In this document: positions 56,528 to 59,228 of the stretch, one piece after another
Numbering within the stretch: the first letter of the stretch is position 1
Layout: every line of letters begins with the position of its first letter
NCBI GenBank assembly: GCA_008501765.1
Contig: QQUE01000002.1
Span: forward strand, 1 to 64,000
DNA: 64,000 nucleotides
DNA from: Calditrichota bacterium
GTDB taxonomy: Bacteria > Zhuqueibacterota > Zhuqueibacteria > Zhuqueibacterales > Geothermadaptataceae
Direction of reading: 5' to 3'
Program-made: the position numbers and the translations under genes
Notes under the pieces: model-generated
The model's input: the letters and a program-made list of their open reading frames with translations, nothing else
Told to the model about the DNA's origin: nothing
Database searches by the model: none

Positions 56528-56972
56528 GAAAGAGTGACTGAAATAATGGCTTCGATTTATTTTTGAAAGCTCGAGGAATGCCTTTGATAAATGAGAGAAA
56601 TAGTGTGGCACGTGGCATAATCCCGTGCCTAACTATTCATTCACCCGATAAAAAAACGGTGGATTTTTAAGTGTGTTCAGTGCACCTAATCTTTTTTTTC
56701 GGGTAATGATTGCATTCCCCAACCTATCCGCTTCGCTGGTCTGTGGAACACCCCGTTCAATAAACCCTCTCCATATCCGTATTCTGATAATAAAATCCCA
56801 ATATCTCTGCCATCGTTTTGCCTGCCTGTGCCAAACGCGCAGCGCCGGCCTGGCACATGCCAACGCCGTGGCCCCAGCCAAAGGCTCCGAAATTTAAATT
56901 TATTCATTCCAGGCAAATTGCCAATGACTATCCAAATAATGATCCCTGAAAACAGATCATGCAATAAGAAAT
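56528..56972. other. region with truncated gene end and short hairpin
   Basis: 445 bases with no complete gene. It holds a GGCACG/CGTGCC hairpin (56607-56629) and the spoIID 3' remnant at 56757-56904. Confidence 0.5.
56757..56904 (-). pseudogene. 3' fragment of a spoIID/lytB-like gene
   Basis: On the minus strand about 48 codons read [20 protein letters not shown] and continue to TDMERVY and a TGA stop at 56757. They match the C-terminus of the intact SpoIID-like protein at 57591-59228 at 39 of 48 positions, and the DNA is nearly identical over about 130 bases. A stop lies in frame just upstream, and the rest of the domain is missing. The intact gene's own end lies 834 bases away on the same strand, with a toxin-antitoxin pair between. 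Confidence 0.75.
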
Positions 56973-57266
56973 TTGTTGCCATTAAGCACACAAAATGATA
57001 GAATTACCAATGAAATTGAATGGTTAAAAGAAAACCGGGAAATTTGTTTCGAGGATATTCTGTTTTATATTGAGCATGATTTGATAGTCGATGATATTAG
57101 CCATCCGAACAAGCAAAAATATAAAAATCAGCGGATGATGGTTTTCGACATTAATGGCTACATTTATTTGGTTCCCTATCTCGAATCTAATTCGGAATTA
57201 TTTCTAAAAACTATCATCCCAAGCAGGAAAGCTACCAAGATTTATTTGGAGAGAAAAAATGAATAA
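56973..57266 (+). CDS. BrnT-like toxin (toxin-antitoxin), start doubtful
   Basis: Protein of up to 97 residues. IEWLKENREICFEDILFYIE, DDISHPNKQKYKNQRMMVF and FLKTIIPSRKATKIYLE match the BrnT-like / COG2929 group, ribonuclease-type toxins that halt translation. No in-frame ATG precedes the conserved part. The frame starts with TTG at 56973 or 56976 with a weak ribosome site, while an ATG at 56995 is in another frame, so the N-terminus may be frameshifted. Its stop overlaps the antitoxin start by 8 bases, the usual arrangement of this pair. Confidence 0.65.
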   Translation: MLPLSTQNDRITNEIEWLKENREICFEDILFYIEHDLIVDDISHPNKQKYKNQRMMVFDINGYIYLVPYLESNSELFLKTIIPSRKATKIYLERKNE

Positions 57267-57534
57267 CAAAATAAATAAGGAAGAAAAAGATATTTTAGAA
57301 TCTTTTGAAAAGGGTGAATGGATTTCGTCACCAAACTTCGATGAACGAAAAAAACAATTAAAAAATTTGGCCGGTGAAACCATTCGAAAACATAAAAGAA
57401 TAAATATCTGAATTTCTCAGCGCGATCTTAATGAATTAAAACGTATTGCCATGCAGGAAGGTTTACCGTATCAGACGCTTATCTCAAGCATATTACATAA
57501 ATACGTCAATGGTGGCCCATTAATTTCAAAATAA
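57259..57534 (+). pseudogene. CopG-type antitoxin interrupted by an in-frame TGA
   Basis: The frame MNNKINKEEKDILESFEKGE... to ...TIRKHKRINI stops at a TGA (57409-57411, codon 51) and then continues in the same frame as ISQRDLNELKRIAMQEGLPY, then QTLISSILHKYVNGG, to a TAA at 57532. Both halves match one COG5304/CopG-type antitoxin, in which the position of the stop normally codes Arg (RINIRI), so a single CGA or AGA to TGA change explains it. The stop removes the whole ribbon-helix-helix. The upstream toxin gene overlaps the start. Confidence 0.75.
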
Positions 57535-57590: not shown

Positions 57591-59228
57591 TCAATAAACC
57601 CTCTCCACATCCGTATTCTGATAATAAAATCCCAAAATCTCTACCATCGTTTTTCCTGTTTGCGCCAAACGCGCAGCGCCGGCCTGACACATGCCAACGC
57701 CGTGGCCCCAGCCCGCACCACGGAAATTAAAGCGCACGGGTGTGCCGGCTTCGTCGAGCTCGGGCGTCACAACAAAACAGGAGCTGTAGAGCGTCGAATC
57801 GCTCATGGCCCGACGGATTGTTAAATCTTTTTCAATTGTAAATGACCCGGCGCTGCCGATAATTTGCAGGCGTTTGATGCGGCCGGAGACACCGCGCTCC
57901 AGGGGAAGAATCGTGCGCAAAACGCCCATTTTTTTGCCGGTGGCCTTGGTAATACTGCGCTCCAGCTCATAGCGTGTAAAACTCGCCTGCCAGCGGAAAT
58001 ATTTTTGTGTGTAGAGCAGCGGTTGCGGCGTATCGGCGCCCAGCGTATTGCAAAAAACCGGCGCTTTGTTGTCGATCCATTTTTTGACGGTCGCATGCTC
58101 CTGCAGGCGGCCACGCAAAAGATCGGCAGCACCACGGCCATCAAAGCGGCCGCGCAGGTAGGGCTGTGGCGTGCCCAACCAGACATTTTCGTTGTTTTCC
58201 GTGTGGCCGCCACAGACGGCAGAATACACAGCATCGATAACGCGGCCGCCTGTTTTCAGCACCCGGCCATAAGTCTTTTTCACCGCCTGATCTGTCGATG
58301 GCTGCTCTTTGCTGACGCCGCCATAAACCTGACAGTGCACTGTCGCACAAATATCAAATCCCTCTTTCTGGTGTGCGCCGCGCTCAACTTTCACCAGCAC
58401 TTCGCTGCGCGCTGCAATCGCCTGGGCTTCCAGCGCTGCGGCAGGAAAACCGAAGGGCATTTCTGCCGGCACGACGCCGCGTAGATAGTCTTCGGTGTCA
58501 ACGATATTGACGGCTGAAAGTTGGTTCTTTTCATCAATGCGTAATTCCAGCAAACCACGGAAAACATTGTCCGCTTTGCCCTCGAAATGAAAGCCATTGC
58601 CCACGTCCATATTTAACAGGGCAAATTTTTCAGCGTGGATGCGCGTGCCATTGGGAACCTGGTATTTTTTCGGCGACTCCTTGCTGAAAATTTCGATTTG
58701 CCCGCCCGCAGAAACACTTTCATCTTCAATGATTTCCAAAGGAAAGCTTTTGCCCAGTTCGGCGCGGTATGTGGCGGCTTCGACAGCATTGGGAAAAGTA
58801 CTCCACAGCAGGACATCGTAGCGTTTTTCGTTGCTGCTAAAATTGGGTTTCTTATTTTTTGTGGGTAATATTTCGCTGCGCAGGTTGAGCTTTTTCAGGC
58901 TGCGGCTGTTTTTTTCGGCTTCGGAGCGGGAGACATTTTCAGCGTAGCGCAGGCGGTAAACGATCGTTGCCGGGGTAAAATTAAGCGCCCGTGCCTGCCA
59001 GCGGATGCCCCGCATGCCGCGGCCAATAAAACGGTTATCGGGGCCGTAAATGGCGAAGCGGCCACTGACCATAAACTGGATTATTTTCTGCTTCTGCAAC
59101 AAGCCAACACGAATCTGCGCCTGCCGTCCCATATTTTGCAAGCTTAGACTCGGGGCGCTGCACCCAAAAATAAGGACCAAACAAAGAAGGAGGACGAGTA
59201 CATAGCGCATTTTATTTTTAAAAATCAT
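57591..59228 (-). CDS. SpoIID/LytB-domain lipoprotein
   Basis: Envelope protein of 545 residues. The N-terminus MRYVLVLLLCLVLIFGCSAP carries a lipobox (FGC). Residues about 95-180 (RSEAEKNSRSLKKLNL, then YDVLLWSTFPNAVEAATYRA) resemble a SPOR-like repeat. The SpoIID domain fills about 230-545, with EAQAIAARSEVLVKVERGAH, CQVYGGVSKEQPSTDQAV, AVYSAVCGGHTENNENVW and [19 protein letters not shown]. In spore formers SpoIID cleaves peptidoglycan glycan strands; Gram-negative relatives probably do a similar job in cell division or envelope remodelling. ATG 59228 has AGGAATTTAAG upstream. A 3' fragment of a second copy lies at 56757. Confidence 0.88.
   Translation of the reverse strand: MIFKNKMRYVLVLLLCLVLIFGCSAPSLSLQNMGRQAQIRVGLLQKQKIIQFMVSGRFAIYGPDNRFIGRGMRGIRWQARALNFTPATIVYRLRYAENVSRSEAEKNSRSLKKLNLRSEILPTKNKKPNFSSNEKRYDVLLWSTFPNAVEAATYRAELGKSFPLEIIEDESVSAGGQIEIFSKESPKKYQVPNGTRIHAEKFALLNMDVGNGFHFEGKADNVFRGLLELRIDEKNQLSAVNIVDTEDYLRGVVPAEMPFGFPAAALEAQAIAARSEVLVKVERGAHQKEGFDICATVHCQVYGGVSKEQPSTDQAVKKTYGRVLKTGGRVIDAVYSAVCGGHTENNENVWLGTPQPYLRGRFDGRGAADLLRGRLQEHATVKKWIDNKAPVFCNTLGADTPQPLLYTQKYFRWQASFTRYELERSITKATGKKMGVLRTILPLERGVSGRIKRLQIIGSAGSFTIEKDLTIRRAMSDSTLYSSCFVVTPELDEAGTPVRFNFRGAGWGHGVGMCQAGAARLAQTGKTMVEILGFYYQNTDVERVY

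Follow-up and report, generated by a model that had tools for sequence, protein, structure and literature searches.

What has become of an antitoxin gene that carries a stop codon in its middle? In the stretch of Calditrichota bacterium DNA analysed here (64,000 nt, hereafter the window), a predicted antitoxin frame is interrupted by a single in-frame TGA. The original prediction offered three explanations: that the module is decaying, that a shortened N-terminal peptide still neutralises the toxin, or that the stop is read through. Choosing between them depends on the antitoxin, on the toxin gene upstream of it and on their relatives in other genomes, which we take up in turn (Table 1).

Table 1. 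Features of the module and its flanks in the window
Feature	Position	Strand	Remarks
Duplicate (122 nt) of the 3' end of the SpoIID-family gene	56758..56879	-	93% identical, same stop codon
Promoter-like element TTGCCA-17-TAGAAT with conserved GCACACA motif	56976..57004	+	motif conserved in relatives
Original toxin start (ATGAAATTG), now MKLNG-stop	57010..57027	+	upstream motif, comparison with relatives
Junction of 25-nt deletion, frameshift	57018..57019	+	compared with the intact toxins L054/L086
Toxin body as it remains (WLKENREICFED...KNE-stop), in a different frame from the start	57021..57266	+	other conserved residues kept
RBS-like GGAGAG upstream of antitoxin start	57248..57253	+	read from sequence
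Antitoxin, N-terminal half	57259..57411	+	50 codons, closed by premature TGA
Premature TGA	57409..57411	+	at invariant Arg of RHH strand
Antitoxin, C-terminal half	57412..57534	+	remainder of RHH domain, same frame, beyond TGA
SpoIID-family gene, intact, adjoining the module	57591..59228	-	sequence match

The antitoxin frame and its in-frame TGA

The 91-residue antitoxin frame (57259-57534, plus strand) consists of 50 residues, the TGA, a further 40 residues and a TAA; it reads MNNKINKEEKDILESFEKGEWISSPNFDERKKQLKNLAGETIRKHKRINI up to the TGA and ISQRDLNELKRIAMQEGLPYQTLISSILHKYVNGGPLISK from there to the TAA. When it is read across the TGA, it shows 30-62% identity over its whole length to antitoxins of related genomes, a similarity that, judged from the alignments, is far in excess of chance. 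Among 43 aligned intact relatives (alignment A5), the column at the TGA site is an invariant Arg, encoded by CGN or AGR codons. Alignment to related antitoxins thus bears out the claim that the two halves share one frame and that the TGA sits at a conserved Arg. Relatives whose protein ends at the same place would speak against a premature stop, and none of the 98 related loci combines an antitoxin ending at this site with a full-length toxin. At two loci of other genomes (L015 and L016), the antitoxin is cut near the TGA position and the N-terminal half alone is kept; their toxin is absent or a mere fragment. We considered these as natural variants with a short antitoxin and rejected them as remnants without an intact toxin.

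The assignment of the antitoxin to the COG5304/CopG type also held. Read across the TGA, the window antitoxin matches the Pfam family CopG_antitoxin (PF12441) over residues 7-81 with 26.2 bits, slightly short of the gathering cut-off (28 bits), which a related antitoxin (L008) passes with 29.4 bits; it differs from that family in that its translated product stops before the ribbon-helix-helix (RHH) is complete. In a PDB sequence search with the antitoxin profile, CopG was the sole credible match. The collection was scanned with a tighter set of antitoxins (A3), the alignment of the first 16 (A2) being too heterogeneous for this.

In the predicted structure of an intact relative's antitoxin, two N-terminal helices (residues 6-16 and 26-43) stand apart from the RHH, to which helices 53-66 and 70-83 belong, and residues 44-52 form the stretch where RHH proteins carry their strand. 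Residues 43-84 of this model align with RHH domains including those of CopG, CopASO and Arc, at Z-scores of 3-4 that are low, as expected at 40 residues. By this model, the TGA falls within the predicted RHH strand, and the stop therefore cuts the first strand of the C-terminal RHH. The window antitoxin has no complete C-terminal RHH, the remainder being encoded only beyond the TGA, in keeping with the original view that the stop removes the DNA-binding domain.

The upstream toxin gene and its start codon

The toxin gene had been described as largely intact, and on this point the original prediction failed. The toxin frame that opens at ATG 57010 breaks after five codons. Between this ATG and the toxin body, 25 nt are missing that are present in all eight closely compared relatives; the deletion is visible against L054, L086, L005, L047, L048, L008 and L103, and taking 25 nt out of L054 at the deletion site gives the window letters exactly. 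The lost stretch includes Trp6 and Lys10, each invariant in 46 toxin relatives, and, in the numbering of the modelled relative, strand 1 (residues 3-6) and half of helix 1 (8-18). With the deletion and its frameshift, the conserved N-terminal W...K stretch is lost and the toxin is neither intact nor in frame. No other toxin of the COG2929-COG5304 family was found in the genome. The toxin gene of the window, to judge by its sequence, is dead. The arrangement of the pair is still recognisable: the toxin frame ends at 57266, shortly behind the antitoxin ATG at 57259, and the toxin-first order is the same in relatives.

The position of the original start is fixed by an upstream motif. Upstream of the toxins in relatives L046-L125, a GCACAC/GCAGAC motif (TTGCCAaaaTGCACACAatGTGaTA) precedes the toxin start in 59 of 60 cases, spread over many phyla, and in 58 of the 60 it lies 24-34 nt from the start. 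We take ATG 57010 to be the old toxin start because its distance from the motif, 24 nt, fits this range. A motif that is nearly universal among relatives could also aid start-codon annotation elsewhere in this toxin family. In 40 of the motif-bearing relatives there is a CACA-TGTG palindrome, which is likely the operator of the RHH antitoxin.

Recent decay and the alternatives to it

Taken together, the locus is very probably what recent decay has left of a COG2929-COG5304 (BrnT/BrnA-like) module obtained by horizontal transfer, with its two genes broken by independent changes. The deletion in the toxin and the stop at an invariant Arg of the antitoxin both support the decay option of the original prediction. 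Apart from these two lesions, both bodies retain nearly all conserved residues, dN is low and dS high in the toxin and antitoxin bodies either side of the lesions, and the antitoxin part beyond the TGA shows no excess of amino-acid changes. Low dN with high dS and conserved bodies therefore point to long purifying selection and a recent break. Such conservation fits a very recent break, but would also be seen if the TGA were a sequencing error or were read through on rare occasions. Decay is not peculiar to the window: both genes are full length at 73 of the 98 related loci, and at others the toxin is lost or truncated; decay is therefore common in the family.

In intact relatives, the upstream promoter would give a two-gene transcript, with a toxin of BrnT fold and ribonuclease type encoded first and the antitoxin second, overlapping the toxin gene by a few bases. 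By analogy with BrnTA, the N-terminal helices of the antitoxin probably bind the toxin, and its C-terminal RHH would dimerise and repress the promoter. In the window, the 25-nt deletion behind the toxin start broke the toxin frame, and the antitoxin, by then presumably unneeded, would have gained its stop in the RHH strand afterwards. The outcome would be at most a non-functional 50-residue peptide.

A first alternative, and one we regard as unlikely, is that the TGA arose through a miscalled base or in the assembly, and that the antitoxin is intact and serves as a solitary antitoxin or repressor beside the dead toxin. Apart from the stop, the antitoxin frame is unbroken and is conserved both before and after it, and solitary antitoxins exist among relatives, 8 of the 98 loci having a full antitoxin and no toxin. 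However, the genome's sole other antitoxin of the family (L002; G000 C8:435892-436143, minus strand), which has no adjoining toxin, likewise carries stops, a TGA and a TAA, and the separate 25-nt deletion in the toxin is no base-calling error. A miscalled TGA would leave a solitary antitoxin, and the module would still not be revived.

It is very unlikely that the toxin is instead made with a new N-terminus and that the module remains active in an altered form. The sole upstream starts in the frame of the toxin body are the TTG codons at 56970/56973, from which the frame is open to 57266. Yet these codons precede the -35 of the promoter-like element that belongs to the module, the N-terminal part of the open frame is unrelated sequence, and a protein started there would have neither strand 1 nor the invariant Trp and Lys. 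The lost stretch also corresponds to the N-terminal stretch of Brucella abortus BrnT that contains Asp6, Glu7 and Lys9, residues reported in a review as necessary for ribonuclease activity (PMC5086665).

The chance that the 50-residue N-terminal peptide has been kept to neutralise a toxin, either that of its own module or one brought in by mobile DNA, is slighter again. Both its RBS-like site and its start codon are preserved, and it comprises the two helices that stand apart from the RHH in the modelled relative, but it could not dimerise through the RHH, and so short an antitoxin is not seen in any relative with a full toxin, L015 and L016 having lost their toxin too. As originally proposed, this option rests on an intact toxin, and with the toxin broken the genome has no working member of the toxin family. 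We give equally little credence to the stub as a stand-alone inhibitor of related toxins on mobile DNA, acting without promoter repression.

As for read-through, the genome encodes a selenocysteine tRNA with anticodon TCA (L129; G000 C11:11248-11341), and the organism therefore probably makes selenoproteins. Genome-wide recoding of TGA was ruled out, as TGA ends 11 of the 44 long ORFs in the window, with normal short extensions behind. Decoding of the antitoxin UGA into a full-length product, by selenocysteine or a near-cognate tRNA for example, has a next to negligible probability: the frame beyond the stop is conserved, but the homologues have Arg and never Cys at this site, the RNA after the UGA forms no SECIS-like hairpin and is less stably folded than shuffled versions of it (z +1.21), the genome uses TGA as a normal stop, and no toxin remains to require a full antitoxin. 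Selenocysteine at this position was rejected for the missing Cys in homologues and the missing hairpin. A retained short antitoxin and a needed read-through are both unlikely because there is no working toxin to neutralise.

Thus, the stop codon in the antitoxin is a mark of ordinary gene decay. With the toxin dead as well, the more exciting readings are left without a foundation. The locus matters little in itself; it is a clean case of the death of a toxin-antitoxin pair, in which the toxin was lost and the antitoxin was then free to decay. Its lesson is that stops in antitoxins should be judged only once the true start codon of the toxin has been checked.

Origin of the module and known systems

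The dead module lies between the SpoIID-family gene and a partial copy of it, positions 56758-56879 duplicating 57592-57713. Because the module is flanked in this way, the data suggest that an insertion or duplication at the end of the gene brought it there. The 122-nt copy ends at the stop codon, resembling an insertion at the 3' end of a gene. Neither copy of the 3' end is clearly closer to the genes of genus mates, and nothing similar to the module is found beside the spoIID genes of these genus mates. The G+C content of the module is 32%, against 43% in the window, and from this low value and a patchy distribution we infer horizontal acquisition.

The prediction that COG2929-COG5304 is a toxin-antitoxin family goes back to Makarova et al. 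(2009, PMC2701414). The window pair shares with it the overlapping arrangement with the toxin gene first, and relatives spread over many phyla, as that paper reports; it differs in being a remnant with both genes broken rather than a working member. Neither PADLOC nor a search of PDB sequences with the toxin profile gave a match, and the likeness to BrnT emerged from fold comparison. The modelled toxin of the intact relative L086 (mean pLDDT 92.6) has the BrnT/RelE-type fold, with B. abortus BrnT (3u97) as best match (Z 9.2, rmsd 2.7 A, 75 of 77 residues) and 7vd7 tied (Z 9.1). The Pfam family BrnT_toxin (PF04365) does not match the window toxin body, and the relatives reach 20-24 bits, below the 34.5-bit cut-off; the relatives are therefore BrnT-like by fold and gene order, not formal members. 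BrnT is a ribonuclease that BrnA neutralises in a 2:2 complex, which also represses the promoter (PMC5086665, PMC10714953). While the relatives' toxin is only 13% identical in sequence to 3u97, and the window copy is missing strand 1 together with half of helix 1, the toxin fold of the intact relatives, the gene order and the RHH antitoxin are all shared with BrnTA.
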